Shown here: positions 3,403 through 32,497 of the stretch, in pieces
Position numbering within the stretch: position 1 is the stretch's first letter
How the letters are laid out: each line of letters opens with the position of its first letter
Assembly: GCA_016208485.1 (NCBI GenBank)
Contig: JACQXY010000066.1
Location: 1-38,679 of the forward strand
Reading direction: 5' to 3'
Length of the DNA stretch: 38,679 nt
Origin: Acidobacteriota bacterium
GTDB taxonomy: Bacteria; Actinomycetota; AC-67
Made by a program: the position numbers and the translations under genes
Notes under the pieces: model-generated
Databases searched by the model: none
Told to the model about the DNA's origin: nothing
What the model saw: the letters and a program-made list of their open reading frames with translations, nothing else

Positions 3403-6400
3403 GCGCCGGCGGCGTCTTCCTGTCCCGGGGCGGCGCGCTCCATCGAGGCCATCTGCTCGTAGAGACGCCAGCGCTCGTCCACGTCCCGCTGGGCGAGCTC
3501 GAGCAGCCGGTCGGCCTCCTCGGGGTTCGTGCGCGAGAGGACCGTGAACCGGGTCTCCTTCTCGACGAACTCCTTGAGACCCAGGGTCGGCTTCTTGGAG
3601 TCCAGGCGCAGCGGGCGCTCCCCGCGCGCCGCGAGCCTCGGGTCGTAGCGGTAGAGCGGCCAGTAGCCGGCGTCGACGGCTTCCTTCTGGTGGCTCATGC
3701 CGGTGGACATCTCGATCCCGTGGGCGATGCAGGGGCTGTAGGCGATGATGATGGAGGGTCCCTTGTAGGACTCGGCTTCCGCGAATGCCTTGAGCGTCTG
3801 CGGGTTGTCGGCCCCAAGGGCGATCTGGGCGACGTAGATGGTGCCGTAGGACACCGCGATCATCCCCAGGTCCTTCTTGGCCATCGGCTTCCCGCCGGCC
3901 GCGAACTTCGCGACGGCGCCGCGCGGCGTCGACTTGGACGCCTGACCCCCCGTGTTGGAGTAGACCTCGGTGTCGAGCACCAGGACGTTCACGTCCTCGC
4001 CGCTCGCAAGCACGTGGTCGAGCCCGCCGTACCCGATGTCGTACGCCCAGCCGTCCCCGCCGACGATCCAGACGCTCTTGCGCGCGAGGTAGTCGGCGAG
4101 AGCGAGCAGGCTCCGGGCATCCGGTGAATCGAGAGCCGCCAGGCGGGGCTTCAGCTCTTCGATTCGCGCCCGCTGCGCGGCGATCGCGGCGTCGTCGTCC
4201 CGCGTCTCGGCGAGGATCGCCGCGGCGAGGTCCTCGCCGACCTCGGAGCCGAGCCGGGCGAGGAGGTCGCGCGCGTGCCGGGCGTGCTGATCGAGCGCCA
4301 GCCGCATCCCGAGCCCGAACTCCGCGTTGTCCTCGAACAGCGAGTTCGACCACGCCGGGCCGCGGCCGTCGCGCCCGGAGGTCCACGGCGTCGTCGGCAG
4401 GTTTCCCCCGTAGATGGAGGAGCAGCCGGTCGCGTTGGCGACGAGGAGCCGGTCCCCGTACATCTGGGTGAGGATCTTGAGATACGGGGTCTCGCCGCAA
4501 CCCTCGCAGGCGCCGGAGAACTCGAACATGGGCTCGATCATCTGCGAGCCCTTGACCGTCGTGAGCTTCACCTGGCTCCGGTCCATCTGCGGAAGGGCCG
4601 AGAAGAAGTCGAAGGCGCGCCGCTCGACCTCGAGGTGCGGATCCTTGGCCGTCATGTTGATGGACTTGTGATCCGGGTTCTCCTTGCTCGTCACGGGGCA
4701 GACGTCCACGCAGACCCCGCAGCCGGTGCAGTCGTCCGGGGCGACCTGGATCGTCATGACGTGGCCGGGGAAGTCCTTGGCCTTCCACGCCTTGGACCGG
4801 AATCCCTGCGGCGCTCCCTTCGCGGCAGCCGGCTCATAGACGCGCATCCGCAGCGCCGCGTGCGGGCACACGATGACGCACTTGGCGCAATCGATGCAGA
4901 TGCTCGGGTCCCAGATCGGGATGTCGAGCGCGATGCTCCGTTTCTCCCAGCGGGCGGTGCCGACCGGGAACGTCCCGTCGACCGGCAGGGCGCTCACCGG
5001 GAGCAGGTCGCCCTTGCCGGAGATGATTGACGCCGTGACCCGCTTCACGAAATCCGGGGCCTCCGCCGGCACGACGGCGGAGCGCCGGATCTCGCTCGTG
5101 GCGCGCTCGGGAACCTCGACCTCGTGCAGAGCCTCCAGGGCGAGGTCCACTGCCGCGAAGTTCTTCGCGAGGACCTCCTCGCCGCGCTTGGCGTAGGTGC
5201 GACGGATCGCCTTCTTGATCGCCTCGACGGCCTCCTCCCGGGGAAGGACGCCGGCGAGGGCGAAGAAGCAAGTCTGGAGCACGGTGTTCATGCGCCGAGC
5301 GAGGCCGGTCTCTCGCGCCACGCGGTAGGCGTCTACCACGAAGAACCGCAGGCGCTTGGAGAGGATCTGCTCCTGGACCTCGGCGGGGATCCGGTCCCAG
5401 ACCTCGTCGGGGCCGAACGGGCTGTTCAGCAGGAACGTGCCGCCGGGCTCGGCGACGGAGAGCACGTCCATGCGCTCGAGGAAGTTGAACTGATGGCAGC
5501 CCACGAAGTTCGCGCGGTCGATCAGGTAGGTGGAACGGATCGGGCGGGGCCCGAAGCGCAGGTGGGAAACGGTGATGGATCCCGCCTTCTTCGAGTCGAA
5601 CACGAAGTACCCCTGCGCGAACAGGGGCGTGTCCTCCCCGATGATCTTGACGGTGTTGCGGGTCGCTCCCACGGTGCCGTCGGCTCCGAGCCCCCAGAAG
5701 ACCGCGCGCACGACGTCCTCCGGCTCGGTGGAGAACGACCGGTCGTAGGGCAGGCGCGTGTGCGTGACGTCGTCGACGATGCCGACCGTGAAGTGGTTCT
5801 TCGGCTCGTCTCTCGTCAGCTCGGCGAATGCCGCCGCGGCCATCGCGGGGGTGAACTCCTTGGAGGACAGCCCGTAGCGCCCTCCGATCACGCGCGGCAT
5901 GCCTGGGAAGCGCGCGCGGCCGGCCGCCACCCGCTCGGCGAGCGCTGTGACGACGTCCTGGTAGAGCGGCTCGCCCACGGCGCCGGGCTCCTTGGTCCGG
6001 TCGAGCACGGCGATGGCGCCCGTGGTGGGGGGGAGCGCCGCGACGAAGGCCTCGGCGGAGAACGGGCGGAACAGCCGCACCTTGAGCACGCCGACCTTCT
6101 CCCCGCGGGCGGCGAGCGCTTCGACGGTCTCCTCGACGGCGCCGCATCCCGATCCCATCAGCACCGCCACGCGCTCCGCGTCGGGCGCGCCGGCGTAGTC
6201 GAACAGGCGGTAGCGGCGGCCGGTCCGGTCGGCGAAGCGGTCCATGGCGTGCTGGATGATGTCGGGCAGGGCGAAGGTGAAGGGGTTCGCGGCCTCGCGC
6301 GCCTGGAAGAACACGTCGGGGTTCTGGGCCGAGCCGCGCAGGACCGGTAGGTCGGGCGTGAGCGCCCGTTCGCGGTGCGCGAGGATCGCGTCGGCGCTCA

Positions 6401-6983
6401 GCATCGCCCGCACGTCGTCGTCGGAGATGCGCTCGATCTTGTTGACCTCGTGGGAGGTCCGGAAGCCGTCGAAGAAGTGGACGAAGGGCACGCGGGAGTC
6501 CAGGGTCGAGGCGTGGGCGATCAGAGCGAGGTCCTGCGCTTCCTGGACCGAAGAGGAGCAGAGAAACGCGAACCCGGTCGATCGCGCGGCCATGACGTCG
6601 CTCTGGTCGCCGAAGATCGACAGCGCGTGTGTGGCGAGCGTTCGCGCCGCGACGTGGAAGACGGTCGGGGTCAGCTCGCCGGCGATCTTGAACATGTTCG
6701 GGATCATCAGGAGCAGGCCCTGGGAGGCCGTGAAGGTCGTCGTGAGCGCCCCCGCCTGAATGGCGCCGTGAACCGCGCCGGCCGCGCCCCCCTCGCTCTG
6801 CATCTCGACCACCCGGGGGACCGCGCCCCAGATGTTCGGCCGCCCGGCCGCCGACCACGCGTCGGCGAGCTCGCCCATGGTCGAGGACGGGGTGATGGGG
6901 TAGATCGCGATGACCTCGCTGCACTTGTGGGCGACGTAGGCGGCCGCGTCGTTGCCGTCGACCGTGACCAGGGATCGTTCCAC
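3399..6983 (-). CDS. nifJ: Pyruvate:ferredoxin (flavodoxin) oxidoreductase, single-chain
   Basis: Cytoplasmic, oxygen-sensitive thiamine-diphosphate enzyme that oxidises pyruvate to acetyl-CoA and CO2 with ferredoxin or flavodoxin as acceptor. It has 1194 residues, the normal size of the fused homodimeric form. Domain order is standard: N-terminal domain with YPITPSSTMGE (about 29-39), the domain II/III region, a linker, two 4Fe-4S sites CIDCAKCVIVCP (near 693) and CTGCGVCVDVCP (near 750), then the TPP domain with CEGCGETP (near 823) and GDGWAYDIGYGGLDHV (near 975), followed by YSNTGGQASKSTP. The start is GTG with GAGGAG six bases upstream. It lies 78 bases downstream of the radical SAM gene on the same strand. 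Its 3' end abuts the deacetylase gene with no room for a separate terminator. Confidence 0.97.
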   Translation of the reverse strand: MERSLVTVDGNDAAAYVAHKCSEVIAIYPITPSSTMGELADAWSAAGRPNIWGAVPRVVEMQSEGGAAGAVHGAIQAGALTTTFTASQGLLLMIPNMFKIAGELTPTVFHVAARTLATHALSIFGDQSDVMAARSTGFAFLCSSSVQEAQDLALIAHASTLDSRVPFVHFFDGFRTSHEVNKIERISDDDVRAMLSADAILAHRERALTPDLPVLRGSAQNPDVFFQAREAANPFTFALPDIIQHAMDRFADRTGRRYRLFDYAGAPDAERVAVLMGSGCGAVEETVEALAARGEKVGVLKVRLFRPFSAEAFVAALPPTTGAIAVLDRTKEPGAVGEPLYQDVVTALAERVAAGRARFPGMPRVIGGRYGLSSKEFTPAMAAAAFAELTRDEPKNHFTVGIVDDVTHTRLPYDRSFSTEPEDVVRAVFWGLGADGTVGATRNTVKIIGEDTPLFAQGYFVFDSKKAGSITVSHLRFGPRPIRSTYLIDRANFVGCHQFNFLERMDVLSVAEPGGTFLLNSPFGPDEVWDRIPAEVQEQILSKRLRFFVVDAYRVARETGLARRMNTVLQTCFFALAGVLPREEAVEAIKKAIRRTYAKRGEEVLAKNFAAVDLALEALHEVEVPERATSEIRRSAVVPAEAPDFVKRVTASIISGKGDLLPVSALPVDGTFPVGTARWEKRSIALDIPIWDPSICIDCAKCVIVCPHAALRMRVYEPAAAKGAPQGFRSKAWKAKDFPGHVMTIQVAPDDCTGCGVCVDVCPVTSKENPDHKSINMTAKDPHLEVERRAFDFFSALPQMDRSQVKLTTVKGSQMIEPMFEFSGACEGCGETPYLKILTQMYGDRLLVANATGCSSIYGGNLPTTPWTSGRDGRGPAWSNSLFEDNAEFGLGMRLALDQHARHARDLLARLGSEVGEDLAAAILAETRDDDAAIAAQRARIEELKPRLAALDSPDARSLLALADYLARKSVWIVGGDGWAYDIGYGGLDHVLASGEDVNVLVLDTEVYSNTGGQASKSTPRGAVAKFAAGGKPMAKKDLGMIAVSYGTIYVAQIALGADNPQTLKAFAEAESYKGPSIIIAYSPCIAHGIEMSTGMSHQKEAVDAGYWPLYRYDPRLAARGERPLRLDSKKPTLGLKEFVEKETRFTVLSRTNPEEADRLLELAQRDVDERWRLYEQMASMERAAPGQEDAAGA

Positions 6984-7061: not shown

Positions 7062-8582
7062 TCAGCCGGTGAGGAGGTGCCCGACGTTCGAGCCGGACAT
7101 ATCTTCCGCGGCTCCGGTCCGGATCTCAGCGTTGAGCGAGGCGGCCCAGGCGATGAGCGCTTCCTTCGTGGGGAACTCCGGGGAGAGGCAGCAGAACTCG
7201 TCGGAATCCGCGTCGAACCGGGCAGCTTCGATCTCCTCGGGAGTCCGGCCTGCGGCGAACCGGTCGTAGAGGGGCGTCCCGCGGAAGACCACGAGCGGGA
7301 AGAAGGTCGCCTCGCGGAGCCCGTGCTCGCGCAGGATCCGGGTAGTGCGCAGGTGCGACTCCCGTGGCTCGCCGGGAAGCCCGGCGATGAAGGTGAGGAT
7401 CGGCTCGAGACCGAGGTGGCGGGTGAGCAGGGCCCCGTTGAGCACGTCCTTCGCGGTCTGGCGCTTCCTCACCACGTCGGTCAGGACCTCGTCGTTGAAC
7501 GACTCGCTCCCGAAGGCGAGGCTGCGGAAGTTCGCCGCCTTCATCCGAGTGAGCGTCTCCTCGTCGACCATGTCGGCGCGGGTCTGAACGTTGTAGTTCC
7601 ATCCGATGCCGGCGATCTTCTCGCAGATCTCGTGCAGCCGCGCGCGGCGAAGCGTGAAGGTGGCGTCGCCGAAGTAGAACTTCGGGTTCCCGGTCTCGTG
7701 GTAGTTGTCCCAGCAGAACTGGACCACGTCCCGGACGTAGCCGGGGGAGTGGAACCGGACACGGCGCTTCCAGATGGTCGGGTCCATGCAGAAGGTGCAG
7801 CGCTCGGGGCAGCCCCGGGAGGTGACGAACGAGGAGCCGACGAAGTAGTCACCCTCCGGCATGAGGGTCTTGAGGAAGCGATGGCGCATCCCGATCCGGA
7901 ACTCCTCTCCGGCGAAGTACATGTGGGGGAGCCGGTCGAGGTCGTCGATCCGCGGCATGTCGGGGTTGCGCCGCGGGTGCCCGCCGCCGTCGCGGTAGGT
8001 GACTCCGCGCGTCTGGAGCCCCCCGTTCCGCAGGCCGCCCGCCCCAAGCTCGTCCATGAGGTGCAGGACGGTCTCCTCGCCCTCGCCGCGCACCACGACG
8101 TCGGCCAACCCCTCGGTCACCAGCTCGGGCGCGTGCATGGTCGCGTAGTTCCCGCCGACGACCAGGATCCCCGAGGGGTTCGCGGCGCGGATGCCGGCGA
8201 GCAGGCGCTTCACGCCGCGCACCATGTAGTAGTAGCTGAGAGGCACCATGATCACGTCGGCGCCGGCGACCCGGGCGAGCAGGTCGGCCTTCATCCGCCG
8301 CATCAGGCCTTCCAGCTCGGCGCGCGCCGCCGGGTCGCGGACGTGGGCGTCGGAGACCTCGAACCAGCGGAGGTCGTCCCAGTGGTCGGCGACGACATTC
8401 ACCGGCTCGAAGGGGACCCCCCGGCTCTTCAGGACCGCGGCGACATAGAGGATGCCGTACTCGGGAGTGATCACCGCGCGGTCCCGGTACCCCTTCCAGA
8501 ACGGCTCCCAGGAGGGGGAGGGGCGCCGTTCGAGGAAGGCGAAGGCGAAAGTGTCGCTGACGAGCACGGTGCGAAGGCTCAT
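7062..8582 (-). CDS. B12-binding-type radical SAM protein, function unknown
   Basis: This 506-residue protein has the two-part layout of cobalamin-binding radical SAM proteins. The N-terminal half looks like a B12-binding Rossmann fold: YVAAVLKSRG, ADVIMVPLSYYYM, ILVVGGNYATMHAPELV and VVRGEGEETV. The radical SAM half has the cluster motif C258-X3-C262-X2-C265 (GCPERCTFC), then GDATFTLRR, NVQTRADMVDEETL, FGSESFND and TFIAGLPGE, the usual strand order of the SAM barrel. Such proteins use S-adenosylmethionine radicals, often for methyl transfer, ring closure or other difficult chemistry. The ATG start follows GGGGGA seven bases upstream. No recognisable biosynthetic partner is adjacent, so the substrate is unknown. 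The closest generic label is the BchE/P-methylase-like superfamily; I cannot place it in a characterised subfamily. Confidence 0.88.
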   Translation of the reverse strand: MSLRTVLVSDTFAFAFLERRPSPSWEPFWKGYRDRAVITPEYGILYVAAVLKSRGVPFEPVNVVADHWDDLRWFEVSDAHVRDPAARAELEGLMRRMKADLLARVAGADVIMVPLSYYYMVRGVKRLLAGIRAANPSGILVVGGNYATMHAPELVTEGLADVVVRGEGEETVLHLMDELGAGGLRNGGLQTRGVTYRDGGGHPRRNPDMPRIDDLDRLPHMYFAGEEFRIGMRHRFLKTLMPEGDYFVGSSFVTSRGCPERCTFCMDPTIWKRRVRFHSPGYVRDVVQFCWDNYHETGNPKFYFGDATFTLRRARLHEICEKIAGIGWNYNVQTRADMVDEETLTRMKAANFRSLAFGSESFNDEVLTDVVRKRQTAKDVLNGALLTRHLGLEPILTFIAGLPGEPRESHLRTTRILREHGLREATFFPLVVFRGTPLYDRFAAGRTPEEIEAARFDADSDEFCCLSPEFPTKEALIAWAASLNAEIRTGAAEDMSGSNVGHLLTG

Positions 8583-9962: not shown

Positions 9963-12900
9963 CTACAGCCGCTGGCCGTCGAACAGCACGACGCGCGGGA
10001 TGATCCCCGGCGCGACGAGCACCCCGCGCGCGCGAGTGTTCCCGTGGTCCATCACGAGCACGAACTTCGTCCCGGCGGCCACCGTCGCGTAGTCGGTTCC
10101 GACGGGCAGGGTGAGGCCCGTGCCGGCGAACAGCTCGGCCACCCTGCCGTCGTTCCACCACCAGAACTCCAGCTTGCCGGTGGCGGGATTCACGAAGAAG
10201 ACGTTGTGCGTGCTCGCGTCCTGGTAGGCGGCCGGCCACGTCTTCGAGGTGATCAGGAACTCGGCCGAGACGTACCCCGGCGGGTGGGAGATGTTCGCGC
10301 CGCACCGGAGCCCCCAGATCGTGTTGTTGTCGCACTGGCCGTCCGAGCGATGCTTGTCGGCGAAGACGGTCACGACCCCGACCGCGTACTTGTCCTCGGG
10401 AGCCATCGGCCCGCCGAACGTGGGGAGGGGGAACGACAGGGTCGTGGAGCAGATCCCGGCGACACACTCGCTCGCCATCACGCGCCCCATCCAGATCCGG
10501 GTGTTGTCGGTCGGCCTGGCCACAACGAGGATGTAGGAGTCGACCGGCTCACCGCCGGTGGCTTCCTTCCAGGACACCGCGACCTCCGTAGCGCCGGTGA
10601 ACACCGAGAAGGGAGGCGGCAGCAGGTCCGTGGCGATCGGATGGATGCCCGTCGCCGTCGGGTCGATCTGGAAGTTGCGCGGGTCCGACGCCGGCCCGGT
10701 GCGGCCGGCGGTGTCGGTGGCGGTGGCGGTGATGGAGTGAGAGCCGATCGCGAACTCGATCGGGACCGTCCATTCTCCTGCCGCCGTGGCATCCGTCTCG
10801 CCGATCTGGACCATGTTCTCCCAGACGCGGATCGTGGCGTTCCCCTCGGTCCAGCCGGCGACCGTGACGGTCGTGGAGGTGAGCACGGCTCCTTCGACGG
10901 GCGAAGAGATGGACGGCGCGACCGGCCCGGTGGTGTCGACCGTGAAGCGCCGGGGAGCCGACGCGGGGCCCGAGTTCCCGGCGGCGTCGGTCGCCGTGGC
11001 GCGCACCGTGTGGGGGCCCTCCGCCAGGGTCGTCTCGACCTGCCAGCTTCCGTCCGAAAGCGACGCGGTCCTGTCGATCTCGTCCGTCCCCTCCTTGACG
11101 ACCACGGTGGCGAGCGGCTCGGCCGTGCCGGCGATCGCGACCGAAGTCGAGGGGACCACGGCGCCTTCGGTGGGTGAGGTGATGACGGGCGCCGCCGGCG
11201 CGACGGTGTCCACGGTGAAGCTCCGCGGCGCCGACGGCGCACTCACGTTGCCGGCCTCGTCGGTCGCGGTGGCCGTGATCACGTGCGGACCCTCGGAGAA
11301 CGATGCCCAGGTGGAGAAGGAGCCGGACGGCTCGGCCTGGACTTGGGCACGCTCGACCGTCTGCTCCCAGATGCGTACGGTGGCATTCGCCCGGGCGGTC
11401 CCCGCGATGTACACCCAACTCGCCGGGAGGGCGGCCCCCTCCGCCGGAGAGGTGATCACGGGCGCCGCCGGGGGCACCGTCGCCTTGGTGGCGCAGGCCT
11501 CGGCCGAGATCTTCTGGAGTCCGGAGCCGAGGTCGTCACGGGCGAGTGCCGTCGCGCACAGCGTGCCGTCCTGGAACACCGACAGGTCTTGGGCGGTGAA
11601 CACGGTGCTGAAGTCGGCGAGGTTGCCCGACGTGAAGGTCCGGATGAGCTCTGTGCCGCTCGGAGGCCCGGAGAGGCGCACCGTCACCGGACGGGCCGGC
11701 CAGGCGGTGCCTGAGATCGTGAGCGAGCCGCCCGCTCCGACCGCCGGGGGCGAAGCGCTCGCGCGCGGGGTGCACCCGGAGCCGCCGGCGTAGTTCCATC
11801 CGGCGGGGAAGGAGTTCCCGGCGCTCCCGATCCCCTGGTTGTAGTCACGCTCGTACGGGTCGTCCTCAGTGCCGTCCAGGAAGTTCTGGCAGGACACCGA
11901 GAGATACACCGCGCGCGCGAGCGTCCTCGTTCCGGGGTTGGACAAGCTCCCCGGGCCGGACACCTGGGTCCCGATGTTGAGCGCCGCGGCGGAGGAGAAC
12001 TTCACGTTGTTCCGGCCGAGGGTCACTCGCGAGGTGCCGTTCAGGAGCAGGCCGCGCTGAGATCCGATCCCCGGGGGGCCGGTGCCCGCCGGGCCGACGA
12101 CGTTGTCGGTGACGACGACCCCTTCCTCGGGGGGGCCGGCGTTCTCCGAGAAGAGGGTCAGCAGGTCGTCAACAAGCCCGATCGCGCCGAGGTCTCCCGA
12201 GAGGGTGGAGGCGTCCGCCGTGAGGACGATGACGCCGTTCGAGCTGATGGTGCCGTCCGCCGAGTCGGAGGCGACGATCCCCCCGCCCGGCATCGGCAGC
12301 ACGGTCGGGCTCAGCTTCGCGCGCACGCTGTTGCTGGAGACCTCGAAGGCACCGACCCCGAGCAGCACGACGGCGGCGCGCCCGGACGCGTGCGCGTCCG
12401 CCGGGTCCACGCCGTCGGGATCCAGGCCGTCCACTTCCTCGAGCCGGCCGAGGTTGTTGCGGGCGACGAGGACGTTGCGCACGTGCCGGCCGTCCGGGGT
12501 GGGCGCGTTGAGGTCGGTGGACAGCGCCTGCACGCGGATTCCGTTGGAGTCGAACGAAGGGAAGTCGGAGCTGAACAGCCCGACCGCGTTGGAGGTGATC
12601 TCGATGCCGTCGGCCACCCGTCCGTAGCGCTCGCGCACGTCGACCGCGACGACGCCGGTGTCGCCGTCGGGCACACCCGGCGGGGCGTAGGTGACGTAGT
12701 TCCCGGTCACCCGGAACCCGGTCAGTTTCTGGTCGGGCGGGATGGAGAACACGTCGCTGTGTACCCCGGCTGTGCCGAAGCGGATGGTGAGCGTGCCCGA
12801 CGAATCGCCGTACCCTCGGTCCACCGCGAGGCCGACGATCGCGCTGTCCATAGTCAGGCCCCCGGCGATCCGGTTGGCCTCGGGAGAAGGGAGCCCGCCC

Positions 12901-13358
12901 GGCGCGCCGATCGTGGTCGCCGCGGTGTTCACCGCGACGAGGGGGCGCCCGAAGCTCACGAGCTTCAAGCCGCGGATGACGACCGAGTCGGTGCCGGGGG
13001 CGACGAAGAACGCGGTTTGCGTCCCGGAGCCGACGACGATGGCCCGATCGGTGCCGGCCGACTCGACGGTCGTGTCGGAGGCCCGCACGATTACGGCGGC
13101 GGCCTCGATCGAGGTGAGATCCCCGCCGTGCGCGGCGGCGGCGGTGAAGTCGCAGGTTCCCGAGAGGCGCACGATCCGGCCGGTGGCGCTCGGGAAGTCG
13201 ACGGCCTGCTGGACCGCGGTGATGTCGTCGGCGTGCACGTCGCAATCCACTGCCAGCTCGGCGGGTGGAGCCGCGGCCGCGATCCCCGGCAAGACGAGCG
13301 AGAGAACGAGAGCGAGCAGCCCCGCGCGCCGGGCGCTGGGACGTCCGCTGGAGGTCAC
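9963..13358 (-). CDS. Exported parallel beta-helix protein with Ig-like repeats and a novel C-terminal module
   Basis: Extracellular protein of about 1131 residues, function unknown. I start at GTG 13358: it follows AAGGGGG by five bases and begins a clean signal peptide (RRAGLLALVLSLVLPGIAAAA). The longer frame to 13460 starts at a TTG that is itself part of the -35 box, so it cannot be used. After the signal comes a region with pectate-lyase-like right-handed beta-helix features (RGLKLVSF, GFRVTGNYVTY, GIEITSNAVGLF, NVLVARNNLG). Next are three bacterial Ig-like repeats of about 90 residues with ITSP-EGA starts and ITATATD ends. The last 230 or so residues form a module with C-X3-C and a FADKHRSDGQCD region. 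The protease gene just upstream has the same last Ig-like repeat and module. Beta-helix proteins often bind or cut polysaccharide, but no catalytic motif is seen here. Confidence 0.85.
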   Translation of the reverse strand: MTSSGRPSARRAGLLALVLSLVLPGIAAAAPPAELAVDCDVHADDITAVQQAVDFPSATGRIVRLSGTCDFTAAAAHGGDLTSIEAAAVIVRASDTTVESAGTDRAIVVGSGTQTAFFVAPGTDSVVIRGLKLVSFGRPLVAVNTAATTIGAPGGLPSPEANRIAGGLTMDSAIVGLAVDRGYGDSSGTLTIRFGTAGVHSDVFSIPPDQKLTGFRVTGNYVTYAPPGVPDGDTGVVAVDVRERYGRVADGIEITSNAVGLFSSDFPSFDSNGIRVQALSTDLNAPTPDGRHVRNVLVARNNLGRLEEVDGLDPDGVDPADAHASGRAAVVLLGVGAFEVSSNSVRAKLSPTVLPMPGGGIVASDSADGTISSNGVIVLTADASTLSGDLGAIGLVDDLLTLFSENAGPPEEGVVVTDNVVGPAGTGPPGIGSQRGLLLNGTSRVTLGRNNVKFSSAAALNIGTQVSGPGSLSNPGTRTLARAVYLSVSCQNFLDGTEDDPYERDYNQGIGSAGNSFPAGWNYAGGSGCTPRASASPPAVGAGGSLTISGTAWPARPVTVRLSGPPSGTELIRTFTSGNLADFSTVFTAQDLSVFQDGTLCATALARDDLGSGLQKISAEACATKATVPPAAPVITSPAEGAALPASWVYIAGTARANATVRIWEQTVERAQVQAEPSGSFSTWASFSEGPHVITATATDEAGNVSAPSAPRSFTVDTVAPAAPVITSPTEGAVVPSTSVAIAGTAEPLATVVVKEGTDEIDRTASLSDGSWQVETTLAEGPHTVRATATDAAGNSGPASAPRRFTVDTTGPVAPSISSPVEGAVLTSTTVTVAGWTEGNATIRVWENMVQIGETDATAAGEWTVPIEFAIGSHSITATATDTAGRTGPASDPRNFQIDPTATGIHPIATDLLPPPFSVFTGATEVAVSWKEATGGEPVDSYILVVARPTDNTRIWMGRVMASECVAGICSTTLSFPLPTFGGPMAPEDKYAVGVVTVFADKHRSDGQCDNNTIWGLRCGANISHPPGYVSAEFLITSKTWPAAYQDASTHNVFFVNPATGKLEFWWWNDGRVAELFAGTGLTLPVGTDYATVAAGTKFVLVMDHGNTRARGVLVAPGIIPRVVLFDGQRL
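10660..11480 (-). repeat. Three tandem Ig-like domain repeats within the beta-helix protein gene
   Basis: Three successive coding repeats of about 90 codons lie approximately at 11205-11480, 10920-11205 and 10660-10920. Each begins with a version of ITSPxEGAxxP or ISSPVEGAV. Each ends with ITATATDxAGN or the like and a FTVDT or FQID linker. They are adhesion-type beta-sandwich domains by family knowledge. A fourth copy occurs in the neighbouring protease gene at about 14225-14500. Confidence 0.8.
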
Positions 13359-13388
13359 GAGCACCCCCTTCAGGGCCGCCTTGCACTG

Positions 13389-13408
13389 GGCAGGCCTCAA
13401 GGCCCGCC
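13389..13408 (-). other. 5' UTR hairpin upstream of the beta-helix protein gene
   Basis: A 20-base inverted repeat forms an eight-pair GC-rich stem, including one G-U pair, around a TTGA tetraloop. It lies between the predicted transcription start (about 13425) and the start codon, about 30 bases before the GTG. No T-tract follows, so it is not a simple terminator. It may shape translation or mRNA stability. I could not match it to a known riboswitch class. Confidence 0.45.
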
Positions 13409-13431
13409 GTCGATAGGCAGAAAGCGGGGTA

Positions 13432-13460
13432 AGAGTACTACCGATTCGCTTATCTGTCAA
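13432..13460 (-). promoter_or_regulatory. Sigma-70-type promoter of the beta-helix protein gene
   Basis: On the minus strand TTGACA (13460-13455) and TACTCT (13437-13432) are separated by exactly 17 bases. Transcription would start near 13425, giving a leader of about 67 bases. It excludes any start codon upstream of it, which supports the GTG at 13358. Confidence 0.75.
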
Positions 13461-13525
13461 ACCCGGCAGGAATCCGCCCTTTAGTACGAATCCCTACCAG
13501 TTCCGGGCACCGCCGGCCGGCGTCT

Positions 13526-16500
13526 CTACCGTCGGATCCCCTCGAATCCGATCACCCCCGGGAAGGCGGATGTCGTGAGCAGGAACCCCTGCGCGGCGTC
13601 GCCGGAGAGCTGCGCCGCGAGAGCGAACCCGTTTCCGGCGAAGAGGAGCAGACTCCCGGCAGGTGTGTGGAGGATGCTGCCGGTGCCGGCGAAGATTCGA
13701 GCGATCCGGTCCTCGTTCCAGCGGACGAACTGGAACTCTCCGGTCGCGGAGTCGAGGAGCAGGGTGTCGCGGGTCCGCGAGCTCTGGTAGGCGCGCTCCC
13801 AGGGGTGGGCGCTCAGCAGGTACTCGGTGTGGGCATAGCCCGGGGCGTGGGAGACCTCGTTCGGGCACGGCTTGCCGAAGGCCGACTCGTCGTCGCAGGC
13901 GCCGTCGGAGCGGTGGCCGTCCGCGAAGACCGTGAAGATGCCGGTCGCGTACTTATCGCCGGCCTCGAGCTTGCCGCCCGGGATCGTGAGCGGGAAAGCG
14001 AGGGTCGCCCCGCACGCGCCTCCCGTGCAGGCCGTTGGGTCGACGCGCTCGAACCAGACGCGGCTGAACTCGCCCGGCCGGGCGACGACCAGAACGTAGG
14101 CGACGACCGGCTCGCCGCCGGTCGCGGCGGTCCAGGAGACCTGAACGGTGTCGGTGCCGGTGATCACCGAGCCCATCGCCGGCAAGAGCCCCGTTGCGAT
14201 GGGGTGGATGCCCGTGGACCCGGGCTCGATCCGGAAGGAGCGCGGCGGCGAGGCCGTCGAGGTGTAGCCGGCGGCGTCGGTGGCCGTGGCCGTGATCGTG
14301 TGCGGGCCGGGCGCGAAGTGGAGCGCGGCCGTCCAGCGGCCATCCTCGCCCGCCGTCCCGACGCCGATCCCCGATCCCGCCTCGATCACGCTCACTGTCG
14401 CGCTCTGTTCGGCGGTGCCGGCAACGGTCACGGAGCCGTTCGTGAGCACGGCCCCCTCGAGCGGCGCGGTGATGATCGGCGAGGAGGGCGCCGTCGCGCC
14501 GACGATGACCCGGACGAGGGGCTCGGAGGATCCCAAGCCCTGGGTGAAGGCCCGAGCGAGGAGCCGGTGGGCGCCCACGGAGATGCCGGCGGCGTCCCAC
14601 GTTGCGGTCCACGCGGTCCCGTCTCCGGGCGGCGCGACGAACTCCGCCACCCCTTGTCCGTACGGACGGTCGGCCACGACTCGCACCCGGCGGTCGTACG
14701 GGGTCACCATCCCGCTTGCAACCGCCGACAGCCCGCTCTTGTTTCCCAAGGAGCCAACGGCAGCGATCCGGTAGTAGGAGGTGTTGTAGTCGCCGACCGA
14801 GCCGCTCGGATCGGTGTAGCAGAGGCCGGACCGGCTCGCGCCCGGCCAGGTCGGGACATCGGGCGACATGCAACTCTCGCCCGGCACGGTCGTGACCCGC
14901 GTCCACTCCGGCCGGAAGTCCGGATGGAAGGTCTGGTGGATCTCGTAGGAGACGGCTCCGGGCACCGGATCCCAGGCCACGCGCAGGCCGTTGTGGACGT
15001 CGGTCACGCGGACCTCGGTCGGGGTTGCCGGTCCCGCCGGCGCCGGGCCGGAGTCGGTCACCGGCATCACCGCGGAGGAGTCACACGCCTCGGTGCCCTG
15101 CGCGCCTGGGCAGGGCTGCGAGGAGTCGTAGTAGATGCTGGTGTTCGCCTGCGCGTCGATGTATCCGGGGTCGACGTGCAGCACGTAGGCGCTCGCCGCC
15201 TGCACGAATGGAAGCGTCACTGTGGCGGTGAGCCTTTCGGGGACGCTCGGGAGCGCGGTCGTCGCCGTGACGTCCCGCTCGAACTTCTTCACCCCATCGG
15301 CCCAGAGCCGGATCGTCCAGAGCGCGTCCACGTTGCAGCCCGGGCAGCCGGCCCACCAGGAGACCGTCATCGGCCCCTGCAGCCTCGTCGTGGCCCCGAG
15401 CTGCCAGATCCAGTTCGGGTCGTACACGTTGTGCGCGCCGCTGCCGTCGAACGCGGGGTCGGCCACCTTCCACGAAGCGGCGGTCTCGGCGGAGAGCGTC
15501 CTCTCCGCGGCCGGGCGCAGGAACGGCCCGCCGCACCGAAGGACGTCCGTCGCGCCGTCGCCGGTGCAGCCGTCCTCGGTGTTCCCGTCGAAGTAGAGTG
15601 TCGTCGGAGTGGCGGACCCGCCTCCGCCTCCGCCGCCGGGCAGCGCGGTGCCGGCGACCTCCCAGTTGGTGACCCCGTCCCAGCTCGCGGGGTAGGATGC
15701 GGTCCCGTCGACCGCGATCGCTCCCGCGGCGTGCCGGCTGCCCTCGAGCGGTGAGATGATCGCCGCTGCGGGAGCTGCCGAAGCGACCGTGGTGGCCACG
15801 GCCACCAGGACGTAGTTGAACCCGGTCGACTGCTTGGGGTTCTCCTTGGAGTTCGGGTTGCACGGCCGGGCGCCGGCTTCGCCCGCCGTGTAGAAGCGCA
15901 GGGTCCAGGCGCCCGCGCGCGGCGCGCGCAGGTCCAGCTCGCCGCCCGACGCCGCGAACGTCCGGCTCGGCCCCGGCTCGCGCCCGGAGCCGTCCGGGTC
16001 GACCCCCGGCTCCCACATGCGCATGATCGCGCCGCTCACGGCGAGCGAGGTGTCATCGAGAGAGGGCCAGTCCCAGGTGACGTGCAGTCGCTCGACGCCC
16101 GAAGGGACATCGATCACGTGCTGCCCGAATCGGGGCTCGCCGGTGCTCGGGTCGCGCTCGACGACGGCGCTCGAGGGGCTGGTGCACCCGGGCTCGTTGA
16201 CGATGGTCTGCTCCTGGCCGGGCCGGGCCGAGTACGCAGGCGTCGGGTACCCGAGGCTCGCGAGATTCAGGGCGAAGGGGTTGCTCGCGTAGTCGCGCGC
16301 GAACCTCACGGCCGCCGCCACGTCGAGCCGCCCGACACCCTGCTCCTCCGCCTCGTAGGCGGGGAGCTTCGCGATGTTCGATGAACGCTCGAGGATGTCG
16401 ATGATCTCGCCCGCTGAGGGCGAGGCCCCGCCGGACGGCCCCATCCGGTAGGCCTGCACGACGAGCGCCACGGCGCCGACCACGTGGGGGGCCGCCATAG

Positions 16501-17839
16501 AGGTGCCGCTCATGAGCCAGTAGCAGTCGCCCGGGTCCGGGCCGTCTCCCTCCCGGCAGTCGGCCGAGTTGGCGTTGATGGACCGGATGTCGACGCCCGG
16601 CGCGGTGAGGGTCGGCCGGTAGACGCCGATCCCGAGCGCCTGACCGAGCGCGCGGTCCTGGTTGTGCGGGACCTCGTCCTGGGCGTCGGCGATATAGCCG
16701 TCCCGGTCGGTGTCGGCGGGTTCGGCCGGCAGGCCGCGCGAGGAGAAGTCGGCGATCTGGTCGGTCTTCGTCGAGGCCGCGACGCAGATCACCCAGGGGC
16801 TCACGCAGTTCGAGCTGAGCGAGTCGAACCCCGGGCCGGAGTTGCCGGCCGAGAACACGGTCACGATTCCCGCGTGGTAGGCCTCTTGCACGGCGACCTC
16901 GACCGAGGAGTTCGGGTCGTAGACGGTGTTCGCGTTCGCCGCGTCGTCGCCCCAAGAGTTGTTGACCGCGACGACGTTCCCGAGGCCGCGCTGCTTCTTG
17001 TAGATCATGTCGTCGTAGGCCGTCACGGCCCCGATCAGGCTCACCGAGAGGCCCGCGCCGCTCGAGTAGACGTGGAGCTTCGCCCGGGGCGCCATCCCGA
17101 TCGTGCTGTGGGGGGCGCCGATGCCGCCGCTCGCGTCGCCCGTTCCCGCGATCGTGCCCGACACGTGGCTGCCGTGGCCTCCGTCGTCCGCGGAGTCCGC
17201 GCGCGCGTCGTTGCTCGCTCCCGCCGGGCCGGCGTTGCCCGAGTCGGGATTGAAGGGCGAGCATGCGACGGCCAGCCGGTCGGCCGCGCCGGAGACCTCG
17301 CAGTACTCGATGAGGTTGTCGGTGTCCTGGTGCTTGCCGTTGATCCCCGTGTCGATGACCGCGACCTCGACGCCATCGCCGGTGATGCCGAGCCCGCCGA
17401 GATCCGGGGAACGCCATGTCTCGTGCGCGCCGGTGATCCAGGTGGTGTCGGCCATGTCGAGCTTGTAGGAGCGGTTCCCGAACACGCTTCGAACCGCGGG
17501 GGAGCGCCGGAGCGAGGCGAGCTGGGCGCCCGTGAGGCGGGGGGCGACGATCATCGGCAGCGCGCGCAGGCGCGTGCCGCGCACCCCGAGCGCCTCGACC
17601 CGGTCCAGCTCGGCGCGGGTCCAGGCGGTCACGACGGCGGGAGCGACGGCGGCGACCGAGAGGCGCGCCTCGAGCTGGGGGTCGATCGAGGCCGGGCCCC
17701 GGTGGATCGCCGGCATCGGCCTCGGAGCTTGAGTCGCGGGAGCCTGCGCCGCCGGCGCTACGGCCGGCGAGATGAGGCTGGCGAGGAGAAGAAAGCATGC
17801 GCCGACGAGACCGGCGCGGCGAGCGCCTGGCGTGATCAC
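13526..17839 (-). CDS. Exported S8 (subtilisin-family) serine protease with FN3/Ig-like and novel C-terminal modules
   Basis: Extracellular protease of 1437 residues. The GTG start follows a GGGGGG ribosome site by six bases and opens a signal peptide (residues 1-30). A propeptide-like region (about 50-125) precedes the catalytic domain. The full triad is present: D163 in VAVIDTG, H222 in GGHGSHVSGT and S447 in SGTSMAAPHV, plus the oxyanion Asn N333 in SAGNSGPG. An Asp-rich insert, DTDRDGYIADAQDE (about 376-389), resembles a calcium-binding loop. The catalytic domain is followed by jelly-roll-like regions, a poly-Gly linker, an FN3-like domain (RVTDVHNGLRVAWDPV), one Ig-like repeat and a 230-residue end module. 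The beta-helix protein encoded downstream has the same end module. The protease has its own promoter and leader. Substrate unknown; the downstream neighbour is a plausible partner or target by inference only. Confidence 0.93.
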   Translation of the reverse strand: MITPGARRAGLVGACFLLLASLISPAVAPAAQAPATQAPRPMPAIHRGPASIDPQLEARLSVAAVAPAVVTAWTRAELDRVEALGVRGTRLRALPMIVAPRLTGAQLASLRRSPAVRSVFGNRSYKLDMADTTWITGAHETWRSPDLGGLGITGDGVEVAVIDTGINGKHQDTDNLIEYCEVSGAADRLAVACSPFNPDSGNAGPAGASNDARADSADDGGHGSHVSGTIAGTGDASGGIGAPHSTIGMAPRAKLHVYSSGAGLSVSLIGAVTAYDDMIYKKQRGLGNVVAVNNSWGDDAANANTVYDPNSSVEVAVQEAYHAGIVTVFSAGNSGPGFDSLSSNCVSPWVICVAASTKTDQIADFSSRGLPAEPADTDRDGYIADAQDEVPHNQDRALGQALGIGVYRPTLTAPGVDIRSINANSADCREGDGPDPGDCYWLMSGTSMAAPHVVGAVALVVQAYRMGPSGGASPSAGEIIDILERSSNIAKLPAYEAEEQGVGRLDVAAAVRFARDYASNPFALNLASLGYPTPAYSARPGQEQTIVNEPGCTSPSSAVVERDPSTGEPRFGQHVIDVPSGVERLHVTWDWPSLDDTSLAVSGAIMRMWEPGVDPDGSGREPGPSRTFAASGGELDLRAPRAGAWTLRFYTAGEAGARPCNPNSKENPKQSTGFNYVLVAVATTVASAAPAAAIISPLEGSRHAAGAIAVDGTASYPASWDGVTNWEVAGTALPGGGGGGGSATPTTLYFDGNTEDGCTGDGATDVLRCGGPFLRPAAERTLSAETAASWKVADPAFDGSGAHNVYDPNWIWQLGATTRLQGPMTVSWWAGCPGCNVDALWTIRLWADGVKKFERDVTATTALPSVPERLTATVTLPFVQAASAYVLHVDPGYIDAQANTSIYYDSSQPCPGAQGTEACDSSAVMPVTDSGPAPAGPATPTEVRVTDVHNGLRVAWDPVPGAVSYEIHQTFHPDFRPEWTRVTTVPGESCMSPDVPTWPGASRSGLCYTDPSGSVGDYNTSYYRIAAVGSLGNKSGLSAVASGMVTPYDRRVRVVADRPYGQGVAEFVAPPGDGTAWTATWDAAGISVGAHRLLARAFTQGLGSSEPLVRVIVGATAPSSPIITAPLEGAVLTNGSVTVAGTAEQSATVSVIEAGSGIGVGTAGEDGRWTAALHFAPGPHTITATATDAAGYTSTASPPRSFRIEPGSTGIHPIATGLLPAMGSVITGTDTVQVSWTAATGGEPVVAYVLVVARPGEFSRVWFERVDPTACTGGACGATLAFPLTIPGGKLEAGDKYATGIFTVFADGHRSDGACDDESAFGKPCPNEVSHAPGYAHTEYLLSAHPWERAYQSSRTRDTLLLDSATGEFQFVRWNEDRIARIFAGTGSILHTPAGSLLLFAGNGFALAAQLSGDAAQGFLLTTSAFPGVIGFEGIRR

Positions 17840-18037: not shown

Positions 18038-19606
18038 CTACGGGGTCGCGAGGTCGGCGAAGATCGCGGTCTCGAGGTAGCGATTCTGTTCCGCGGAGAG
18101 CGACCCCGCTTGCATCTCCTCGGCGCGCGCCTGCAGCCGCGCGCGGTTGGCCTCCGGGGTGAGAGCCGGATCATCGTCCAGCACCCACGGCGCGAGCGCA
18201 AGGAACTCCGGCTTGGGTCCAGAGTACGGCTCGGCCCACGCGCTGTCCGTCCCGGCGATGAAGTCCTTCGCGCCGACGTAGGCCCGCTCTGAACCTGTCC
18301 GGTCGCGCTCTACGATCGCCGTCTGCCCGTCGAAGGGAAGGTCCACGAGGTTGCCGACCATGTGCGGGCAGACGAGGTACTTGAAGTGGACCGCCGTGTC
18401 GGTCACCGCGCGCAGCGTGGATGCCCCCCACGTGAGCGCCTGCCAGTTGCCGCCGTCGGCGCCGTAGCGCGCCCAGGGCCCGGAGTTCGCCTCGGGCTGG
18501 ATCACCGTGTTCACGCCGCGCCGGTCGAGGCAGAGCATCCACCGATCGGGGGACGCGCACGCCCACGTCTCACCGGGCGGGGGAGTCGTGCCGAAGTCGT
18601 AGCCGAACCGGAATGCCGGCAGCGAGATCGCGAAGCCGAACTTGAACCCCGGCAGGTCTGAAAGAGTGACCGGACCTGTGTTGGCCGTGGACATGTCCCC
18701 GTCGTCGAGCGCGAGGAAGAGCTTCTCGATCTCGGTGAGCGGGGTCTTCTTGTTGGCGGCGACGAGGTTCGTCCTCGGGTCGTACTCGGGGGAAGCGACG
18801 TCCTCCGAGGCTCCAGACTCCGGGTCGTGGACGTGGTAAGGCGCGAAGAGGAACGCCTGGTTCCACGCCTTGTCCGACGAGGCCACCCAGACGCCCTTGA
18901 TCGCGCCCGCGGCGTACTCCGCGGCGAGGTCGGGGTCGGCGAAGGCCGCGACGTCGGCGGGGTCGGTCGAGTAGTGGAAGTCGGCCTGGTTGTTCGACGC
19001 GACGACGTAGACGCCCCACGTGCGTGCCAGGCGAGAGAACGTGCTCATGAACCCGCGCACGAACGTGTCGGTCGCCGCGGTGATGACCGCCTTGCGGGGG
19101 TCCTCGTCGGGGAAGCGCGCGCGGTAGGCCGCGAGCTGGCGCGAGTAGCCGGCGGCGACCAAGCCGAACGCGGCGGCGACCCCTCCGGGCGCGCCGGAGG
19201 CGTTGTAGAGCGCGGGGGTGTCGGCGGGGACCGGGTTCAGGGCCCAGGCGCGCGCCGCCGCCCCGCGCGAGCCGGTGGCAAGCGTCGCCAGCCCGATGTC
19301 CTCGTTGAAGACCACCATTGCGACTTTCGCCGGGTCGAGGTTCGGTTTCACGTAGGCCTGCATCAGGCATTCCATCTTGTCGGCGTAGGTCTGGTAGCTC
19401 TCGGCGTAGGCGACCTCCTGCCGGTACTGGATCGCGAACATCCGGAGCGGGCCCGCGCCCGACGCGGAGTCCGAGACGCCGGCGGTCCGATTCCCCTGGT
19501 TGTACCGGGCGCAATCCAGGCCGCCCGCGGAAGAGGCGGCCGGCAGGGCGATCGTCCCCGCCGCGAGCAGGGCGGCCGCGGCAAGGCGTCGCGAGAAGGC
19601 GCTCAC
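18038..19606 (-). CDS. Exported protein resembling a divergent nitrilase-superfamily hydrolase
   Basis: Predicted exported protein of 522 residues. The GTG start opens a signal peptide (RRLAAAALLAAGTIALPAAS); no strong Shine-Dalgarno is visible. I read a weak carbon-nitrogen hydrolase pattern. VAMVVFNEDIGL sits where the family has its catalytic Glu, and NKKTPLTEIEKLF resembles the Lys segment (KxxLxxxxE). WMLCLDRRGVNTVIQPEAN resembles the Cys-nucleophile strand followed by the usual G-V/A-x-x-V-I-x-P element. Nitrilases hydrolyse C-N bonds in nitriles, amides and N-acyl groups; lipoprotein N-acyltransferase is a membrane relative. Extra Trp/Tyr-rich loops and the signal peptide are unusual for the family. 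If the match is wrong, this is simply an exported protein of unknown function. It lies downstream on neither partner's transcript but between the protease and korA genes. Confidence 0.55.
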   Translation of the reverse strand: MSAFSRRLAAAALLAAGTIALPAASSAGGLDCARYNQGNRTAGVSDSASGAGPLRMFAIQYRQEVAYAESYQTYADKMECLMQAYVKPNLDPAKVAMVVFNEDIGLATLATGSRGAAARAWALNPVPADTPALYNASGAPGGVAAAFGLVAAGYSRQLAAYRARFPDEDPRKAVITAATDTFVRGFMSTFSRLARTWGVYVVASNNQADFHYSTDPADVAAFADPDLAAEYAAGAIKGVWVASSDKAWNQAFLFAPYHVHDPESGASEDVASPEYDPRTNLVAANKKTPLTEIEKLFLALDDGDMSTANTGPVTLSDLPGFKFGFAISLPAFRFGYDFGTTPPPGETWACASPDRWMLCLDRRGVNTVIQPEANSGPWARYGADGGNWQALTWGASTLRAVTDTAVHFKYLVCPHMVGNLVDLPFDGQTAIVERDRTGSERAYVGAKDFIAGTDSAWAEPYSGPKPEFLALAPWVLDDDPALTPEANRARLQARAEEMQAGSLSAEQNRYLETAIFADLATP

Positions 19607-19804: not shown

Positions 19805-21646
19805 ATGACTCAAAAGACGGTTCAAGAGGTCCATCGGGTCGTGATCCGCTTCGCTGGGGACTCCGGAGACGGGATGCAGCTCACCGGCGACCGGTTCTCG
19901 ACCGCGACGGCCGTTTTCGGCAACGACCTTTCGACGCTCCCCGACTTCCCCGCCGAGATCCGCGCGCCTGCCGGGTCTCTGTTCGGGGTCTCGGGATTCC
20001 AGATCCACTTCTCCGACGAGGACATCCTCACTCCGGGGGACCGCGCGAACGTGCTGGTCGCGATGAACCCAGCCGCGCTGAAGACGAGCCTCGTCGACCT
20101 TGCCCCGGCCGGAGTGATCATCGCGAACTCCGACGCTTTCACCGAGAAGAACCTGGAGCGGGCCGGGTACTCGTCCAACCCGCTCAAGGACGACAGCCTC
20201 TCGGGCTATCAGGTCTACGAGATCCCGATGACGGCGATGACCCTCGAGGCGGCCGCGTCGGTCGAGGGCCTCACCAAGAAGGAGGCCGAGCGCGGAAAGA
20301 ACATGTTCGCGCTCGGGCTGGTCTCCTGGATGTACAGCCGGCCGACCGACGTCACGGAGCGGTGGATCCAGAAGAAGTTCGGAGGCAAGCCCGCGGTCAT
20401 GGCCGGCAACCTCGCGGCGTTCAGGGCGGGGCACGCGTTCGGCGAGACGGCGGGGCTATTCGCGGCTCAGTACGTGGTGAAGCCGGCGTCCAACGCCCCC
20501 GGGCGCTACCGGAACGTGACCGGGAACGCGGCCACGGCCTGGGGGCTGGTCGCGGCGTCCGGGCAAGCGGGGCTCCCTCTGTTTTTCGCGAGCTACCCGA
20601 TCACCCCGGCGTCCGACATCCTCCACGAGCTGTCGAGGCTCAAGAACTTCGGGGTCCGGACCTTCCAGGCCGAGGATGAGATCGCCGCGGCCGGGGCGGC
20701 CGTCGGGGGCGCGTTCGGCGGGCATCTCTCCGCGACCGCGACGAGCGGCCCCGGGATGGACCTCAAGGAGGAGGCGCTCGGCCTGGCGGCCATCCTCGAG
20801 CTGCCGCTGGTCGTCGTGGACGTCCAGCGCGCCGGACCGAGCACGGGTCTGCCGACCAAGACCGAGCAGGGCGACCTGATGATCGCGATGTACGGGCGGC
20901 ACGGCGAGGCTCCGGTCCCCGTGATCGCCCCCCGCTCCCCGGCGGACTGTTTCGGGGCGGCCATCGAGGCGTCGCGAATCGCGCTCAAGTACCGGACCCC
21001 GGTGATCGTGCTCTCCGACGGGTTCCTCGCGAACTCCGCCGAGCCGTGGCTGATCCCGGACCCCGCCTCCCTGCCGGACATCTCGATCGCGTTTGCGACC
21101 GAGCCGAACCATGACGGGGAGTTCTGGCCCTACCTTCGCGACGAGAACCTCGCCCGGCCGCTCGCGGTTCCCGGGACCCGGGGGCTTCAGCACCGGATCG
21201 GCGGGCTGGAGCGGGCCGACGGCCGCGGGAACGTCTCCCATGACCCGGCCAACCACGAGCGGATGATCCGCATGCGCGCCGCCAAGGTGGCGAAGATCGC
21301 CGATGACATCCCGCCGCTCGAGGTCGACGACCCCTCGCAAAGCGCCGAGATCCTCGTCATCGGCTGGGGGTCGAGCTGGGGCGCGATCCGCGAGGCTTGC
21401 CGGCGGGTGCGCGACGCGGGGAAGAAGGTCGCCCGGGCGCACCTGTTCTACCTCAACCCGTTCCCGAGGAACACCGGCGAGGTCCTGCGCCGGTACCAGC
21501 GGGTCCTGGTGCCGGAGATGAACAACGGCCAGCTCGTGAAGCTCATCCGCGCCGAGTTCCTCGTCGACGCGAAGAGCTTCGCGAAGGCTCAGGGGCTGCC
21601 GTTCCGCGCCGGCGACATCGAGACCGAGATCCTGAAGAGGGTGTGA
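19805..21646 (+). CDS. korA: 2-oxoglutarate-type 2-oxoacid:ferredoxin oxidoreductase, alpha (gamma-alpha fusion) subunit
   Basis: Cytoplasmic subunit of an enzyme that oxidatively decarboxylates a 2-oxoacid, most likely 2-oxoglutarate, to the acyl-CoA while reducing ferredoxin. It has 613 residues with the gamma domain fused in front of alpha, as in actinobacterial KorA. The gamma domain begins VIRFAGDSGDGMQLTGDRFS and includes EIRAPAGSLFGVSGFQI. The alpha domain has FASYPITPASDILHELS, FQAEDEIAAAGAAVGGAFGG, ATATSGPGMDLKEEALGLA and VQRAGPSTGLPTKTEQGDL, the conserved pyrimidine-binding and CoA-side motifs. The ATG follows AGGTGA. korB begins six bases after the stop, so they form an operon. Substrate choice between 2-oxoglutarate and other 2-oxoacids is inferred from overall resemblance. 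Confidence 0.95.
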   Translation: MTQKTVQEVHRVVIRFAGDSGDGMQLTGDRFSTATAVFGNDLSTLPDFPAEIRAPAGSLFGVSGFQIHFSDEDILTPGDRANVLVAMNPAALKTSLVDLAPAGVIIANSDAFTEKNLERAGYSSNPLKDDSLSGYQVYEIPMTAMTLEAAASVEGLTKKEAERGKNMFALGLVSWMYSRPTDVTERWIQKKFGGKPAVMAGNLAAFRAGHAFGETAGLFAAQYVVKPASNAPGRYRNVTGNAATAWGLVAASGQAGLPLFFASYPITPASDILHELSRLKNFGVRTFQAEDEIAAAGAAVGGAFGGHLSATATSGPGMDLKEEALGLAAILELPLVVVDVQRAGPSTGLPTKTEQGDLMIAMYGRHGEAPVPVIAPRSPADCFGAAIEASRIALKYRTPVIVLSDGFLANSAEPWLIPDPASLPDISIAFATEPNHDGEFWPYLRDENLARPLAVPGTRGLQHRIGGLERADGRGNVSHDPANHERMIRMRAAKVAKIADDIPPLEVDDPSQSAEILVIGWGSSWGAIREACRRVRDAGKKVARAHLFYLNPFPRNTGEVLRRYQRVLVPEMNNGQLVKLIRAEFLVDAKSFAKAQGLPFRAGDIETEILKRV

Positions 21647-21651
21647 GAGAT

Positions 21652-32453: not shown

Positions 32454-32497
32454 CGGTGGGATAGTTGCGGGAGCCGCCGTCCGATCGGAGGAGTCCC

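Follow-up and report, generated by a model that had tools for sequence, protein, structure and literature searches.

Two neighbouring genes on the minus strand of a contig from Acidobacteriota bacterium (GTDB lineage Bacteria; Actinomycetota; AC-67; assembly GCA_016208485.1, contig JACQXY010000066.1), a likely beta-helix protein (gene 1) and an S8 protease (gene 2), end in a common C-terminal module. The whole stretch of 38,679 nucleotides that was analysed is referred to as the window. The module is a real, unnamed two-domain unit, lineage-restricted in the samples searched, and belongs to a known wider class, the bacterial C-terminal accessory modules. For its function we put forward, tentatively and with somewhat less than even confidence, that the duplicated C-terminal module is a portable binding tail, which would tether various proteins of predicted secretion to one and the same target, the likely contact site being one loop of its fibronectin type III (FN3)-like domain.

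The shared C-terminus of genes 1 and 2

The common C-terminus of the two open reading frames (ORFs) covers 354 alignment columns with 46% identity. The shared stretch runs from the end of the preceding repeat, via the last immunoglobulin (Ig)-like repeat, the FN3-like part and the barrel, to the C-terminus. Since the alignment starts in the repeat preceding the last Ig-like repeat, this last repeat and the module are common as one unit. The features of the two genes are located as follows.

9963..13460, minus strand: gene 1, predicted secreted protein of likely beta-helix type, ORF of 1165 amino acids (aa)
10929..11468, minus strand: gene 1, Ig-like repeats upstream of the last one (approximate; Pfam, NCBIfam)
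10644..10928, minus strand: gene 1, last Ig-like repeat and junction, residues 845-939, within the shared block (Pfam Big_6)
10251..10643, minus strand: gene 1 module, FN3-like domain, module residues 1-131
10272..10358, minus strand: gene 1, conserved long loop between the last two FN3 strands, residues 96-124 (HRSDGQCD at 10329-10352)
9966..10250, minus strand: gene 1 module, C-terminal beta-barrel domain, residues 132-226 (secondary structure of the model)
13526..17839, minus strand: gene 2, predicted secreted S8 protease of subtilisin type, 1437 aa (Pfam Peptidase_S8, 118.9 bits)
16298..17380, minus strand: gene 2, S8 catalytic domain, residues about 154-514 (approximate)
14207..14491, minus strand: gene 2, Ig-like repeat and junction, residues 1117-1211, within the shared block (Pfam Big_6)
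13814..14206, minus strand: gene 2 module, FN3-like domain, 53.4% identical to the gene 1 FN3 part
13835..13921, minus strand: gene 2, conserved FN3 loop (HRSDGACD at 13892-13915)
13529..13813, minus strand: gene 2 module, C-terminal beta-barrel domain (AlphaFold of the barrel part alone, pLDDT 91.4)

The last 226 residues of the two proteins were aligned by BLASTP without gaps (101/225 identical, E 1e-69). Between the two genes, 46 of the 88 residues of the last Ig repeats are identical, and the identity amounts to 53.4% in the FN3 part (z 60) and 32.6% in the barrel part (z 26), each against 500 shuffles. Ordinary FN3/Ig similarity is ruled out by the ungapped 226-residue match together with the shuffle controls. 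An earlier sequence-only reading of this DNA had proposed that the protease and the beta-helix protein end in the same module, and the alignment, its E value and the shuffles bear this out. The sequence motifs listed there for both tails were found in the BLASTP alignment, apart from the cysteine spacing: the first Cys pair, given as C-X3-C, reads C-X4-C in the two modules of the window, at module residues 60 and 65. The tail had also not been recognised there as a named family, in agreement with the profile searches, in which the 226-residue modules alone (P0001, P0002) matched no Pfam family up to E 10 (most weak matches being lost to HMMER filtering) and none in NCBIfam up to E 1.

In gene 2, the catalytic Asp, His and Ser motifs are all present (VIDTGING 161, GHGSHVSG 221 and GTSMAAPH 445). 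Gene 1 may alternatively start further in, at 13358, giving a protein of 1131 aa (P0003). Its product carries Big_13, Big_6 and Glucodextran_B in Pfam, three stretches of each. When both full proteins were scanned with NCBIfam, only NF033510, a repeat of Ca2+-stabilised adhesins, passed its cut-off, on the Ig repeats of gene 1 (72.6 bits, cut-off 50), the remaining matches being below theirs. The beta-helix label of gene 1, also taken from the sequence-only reading, stands in a weakened form. The N-terminal part itself has no Pfam match at E 0.1, Beta_helix included, and a PDB sequence search with gene 1 returned nothing at E 0.01. The label is kept because contig C69 encodes a paralogue of gene 1 (44.9% identity across 778 columns) that weakly matches the Beta_helix profile (E 0.017, below cut-off), which is the sole profile support.

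Predicted fold and the conserved loop

The module is predicted to comprise two folds, an FN3-like domain and, C-terminal to it, a small beta-barrel; the structure models were confident, and the FN3 beta-sandwich fold was matched in structure comparison. In alignment A4, which is without P0007 and without two contig-edge fragments, all 11 aligned modules carry the same residue at 20 positions. Eleven of these 20 lie inside the FN3 loop, which makes up 29 of the 226 positions (expected 2.6, hypergeometric p 1.8e-6; the test ignores relatedness, and the loop motif was partly used to detect the copies whose loop conservation was then tested). The invariant loop residues are D96, H98, R99, S100, D101, G102, C104, D105, G111, C114 and G123. 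P0007, which is partial and 99% identical to the protein of genome G002, was left out of the alignments, and the two contig-edge fragments entered the second tree only, the one from contig C32 being also included in alignments A1, A2 and A5.

The columns of C65, C104 and C114 are invariant and a further Cys is located 3 to 14 residues before C65 in 11 of 11 modules; these four Cys probably form two disulfides. By FN3 convention, the conserved loop may be named the FG loop. In fibronectin and in monobodies, the FG loop is a main contact site. We infer that the conserved loop of the module is likewise a contact site, beyond a structural role.

A purely structural role is nevertheless a strong rival and weighs against the binding tail. 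As a spacer and cap, the FN3 domain and the barrel would merely extend and protect the C-terminus, and the loop would be kept for disulfide-dependent folding and for fixing the barrel. Ig and FN3 repeats are common as spacers, the conserved loop shortly precedes the barrel, and the invariance of three Cys columns, with the fourth Cys nearby in every aligned module, is in agreement with such a role. The invariant polar residues around the Cys (D, H, R, S, D and D), however, exceed the needs of a disulfide staple, and one copy consists of a signal peptide and then the module directly, though its gene is cut by the contig end. Taking both sides together, we regard the spacer as rather unlikely. 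The loop could also form a metal site, in which its Asp-rich part (D96, D101, D105, D/N106) would bind Ca2+ and thereby stabilise the module, a role compatible with the other explanations. The loop does contain invariant acidic positions, but P0001 and P0002 match no Pfam family, and a metal site appears distinctly improbable.

Distribution of the module and the question of sorting

In its own genome (86 contigs, 95% complete) the module occupies five places: two in the window, the full gene 1 paralogue on contig C69, and edge pieces on contigs C69 and C32. The carriers are the S8 protease, two beta-helix-type proteins, one protein with a signal peptide and a module cut at the end, and one fragment without an N-terminus. 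In the C69 edge piece, whose gene is cut by the contig end, the module comes immediately after a signal-peptide-like N-terminus. The two module genes of contig C69 stand on either side of a gene with a signal-peptide-like segment. Both contigs terminate within a module gene (L021 position 1 and L022 position 1), and the assembly may have broken at related copies. The edge pieces cover different module parts and could be the two ends of one gene; two genes are favoured because the tree places the pieces with different full copies (support 100/98 and 86/93).

With midpoint rooting, the three full copies of the genome form one group (100/99), and all five including the fragments do likewise (100/99). 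Since the copies of this genome cluster with one another, the spread of the module within it looks lineage-internal and, judged from the 45% sequence identity, looks old. The window copies came out as sisters in the first tree (85/81), but once the fragments were added, the partner of gene 1 was the fragment from C32 (86/93). With the sister pairing lost, the trees do not support a simple tandem duplication as the origin of the two tails in the window. A phage or plasmid origin was rejected: no viral contig matched the loop motif, and P0002 was without plasmid or phage match. Against a viral structure library the barrel had no match at E <= 0.001, while PHROGs gave only a partial match of P0001 at E 0.04 and none of P0002. 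Promoter and terminator scans yielded no more than in shuffles.

Outside this genome the module is rare. With P0001 as the query, matches were obtained in 2 of 100 genomes. At the class level, 2 of 5 genomes matched; the own one is included in both counts. In a phylum sample of 396 genomes, with at most six candidates scored per genome, six matched at E <= 0.001; the whole module was present only in the own genome and G002, and in the other four the match was confined to FN3 positions 2-57. These four were rejected as relatives, as their five loci are without HRSDG in any open frame of at least 200 residues; the frames printed at L013, L014 and L017 encode FN3 repeat proteins of the ordinary kind, and the frame printed for L012 is not the matched one. 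In a second draw of 395, largely overlapping the 396, G002 was once more found, as the one match at E <= 1e-4. A scan for HRSDGxCD[DN] over contigs of 84,980 species, a set from which the own genome's records may be absent, detected 43 stretches, of which one is a relative, JAIVGO010000006.1 (Actinomycetota bacterium MAG113). The loop-motif match in the relative G001 was discarded, since it lies in a 141-residue frame with no resemblance to the module.

Three protein searches returned 2, 8 and 2 proteins, the first and third only those of the window itself. Of the eight database proteins, one (P0007) is incomplete and almost the same (99%) as the G002 protein; in the seven complete ones, 283-342 residues precede the module, which lies at the C-terminus or close to it, in some cases with a few dozen residues after it. 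No precomputed Pfam domain is recorded for any of the eight, and a Pfam scan of five of them gave nothing above chance. The G002 protein (543 aa) is of the same kind, with 52% to P0005 over its length, and its gene overlaps by four bases the preceding 310-aa gene, which has a signal-peptide-like segment. The N-terminal part of P0005 had no match in the own genome. The literature matches listed include no paper describing the module; the searches were general, so absence from print does not follow.

The module had been called lineage-specific, and in the genomes sampled it is indeed restricted to one lineage. The general link to S8 proteases, suggested at the same time, was not found: the window gene is the only S8 fusion detected, and the other module genes with a known N-terminus begin with a beta-helix-type part, with nothing but a signal peptide, or with an unrelated stretch of roughly 280-340 residues. 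Of the role given to the module as a surface attachment, sorting or recognition domain, a real shared module on proteins with signal-peptide-like N-termini stands, and sorting, like the S8 link, is unsupported. As an attachment or sorting tag, the module would dock different exported proteins on one cell-surface receptor, and its position at or near the C-terminus, its unrelated passengers and its lineage restriction in the samples agree with this. In contrast, neither an LPXTG-like motif nor a strongly hydrophobic tail was detected in the three complete module proteins of the own genome that were tested, despite two sortase matches above cut-off in that genome (L023, contig C73, around 87492 and 93860). 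LPxT[GNSA] was absent from four module proteins (one cut before its C-terminus; the C32 fragment not included), and the highest 19-residue hydropathy near the C-terminus of the proteins tested was 1.28. Only five places in the genome hold the module, and the acidity of all 11 aligned modules (pI 4.6-6.3) does not favour binding of anionic wall polymers. An attachment or sorting role is possible, but we consider it unlikely. One of the C73 sortase matches sits within a 1327-residue open frame.

Several other genes of the window were noted. Upstream of the S8 gene, a 522-aa protein (18038-19606, minus strand) has a signal-peptide-like start and no Pfam or NCBIfam match; its E, K and C motifs resemble by eye those of nitrilase-type hydrolases. 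The contig of the S8 protease also encodes a 1705-aa bacterial alpha-2-macroglobulin-type protein (32465-37582, plus strand; Pfam MG2, A2M bait region and A2M), which we take to be possibly a protease trap. Two 2-oxoacid:ferredoxin oxidoreductase systems flank the module genes (3399-6983, minus strand, and 19805-22689, plus strand), one of single-chain pyruvate type (TIGR02176, 1779 bits) and one of two-subunit type. A B12-binding radical SAM protein is encoded at 7062-8582 (minus strand), for which the best NCBIfam model is HpnJ (110.7 bits, far under its cut-off of 577.6).

A candidate binding tail and its known counterparts

Binding is a common role of C-terminal accessory tails on secreted proteins. 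The sequences show that the module is duplicated, is located at or near the C-terminus, follows unrelated N-terminal parts or a signal peptide alone, and contains one strongly conserved loop. As a binding tail, it would serve unrelated passengers (the S8 protease, beta-helix-type proteins, an unnamed N-terminal stretch of roughly 280-340 residues) or directly follow a signal peptide. The passenger would be exported via its signal-peptide-like N-terminus, with the tail at or near the C-terminus, and the FN3 loop, closed by Cys, would contact a common extracellular target. Secretion of the module proteins is probable from the visible hydrophobic N-terminal segment, and the target would presumably be the cell surface, the matrix or a substrate. 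A bolder version, which we offer as speculation with little expectation that it holds, is a previously undescribed actinobacterial docking system, in which a single receptor on the surface or in the matrix would read the Cys-closed FN3 loop as a fixed code, and by which one lineage would display the protease, the beta-helix proteins and others side by side.

The module defines a domain pair that has no entry in Pfam and NCBIfam and has one clear hot spot. Should the loop prove to bind one fixed target, a little-known actinobacterial lineage would be giving unrelated exported proteins a shared address, and the module would be an FN3 binder of natural origin whose loop is closed by Cys.

Known systems resemble the module in part. 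The relevant passages of a review describe collagen binding by the PKD domain of the S8 protease MCP-01 and no collagen binding by other C-terminal domains (PMC11294657). Like the PKD, PPC and beta-jelly-roll domains of S8 proteases, the module is an accessory C-terminal domain of a secreted S8 protease, but it has no Pfam match to those families and the same tail is present also on non-proteases. An FN3-like domain, that of the chitinase SmChiA, is described as a chitin-binding module in the passage concerned (PMC5132251). The barrel shows 12% identity to the eight-stranded DUF1842 barrel (PDB 8t1m/8t0b, UniProt Q63NT7), of which the partner, according to the corresponding passage, is a small helical DUF1843 domain of unknown function, unlike in the module (PMC10994174). 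The avidin-type, fHbp C-terminal and NHBA C-terminal barrels share 6-17% identity with it, tied with other barrels, and kinship does not follow. In its predicted fold, the FN3-like part resembles the fibronectin type III domain (fibronectin repeats; PDB 8peq, 4lxo and 1fnf). The Pfam FN3 model did not match P0001 or P0002, and in contrast to the fibronectin domain, the last two strands of the module are separated by a loop of about 30 residues with HRSDG-x-CD and two Cys.
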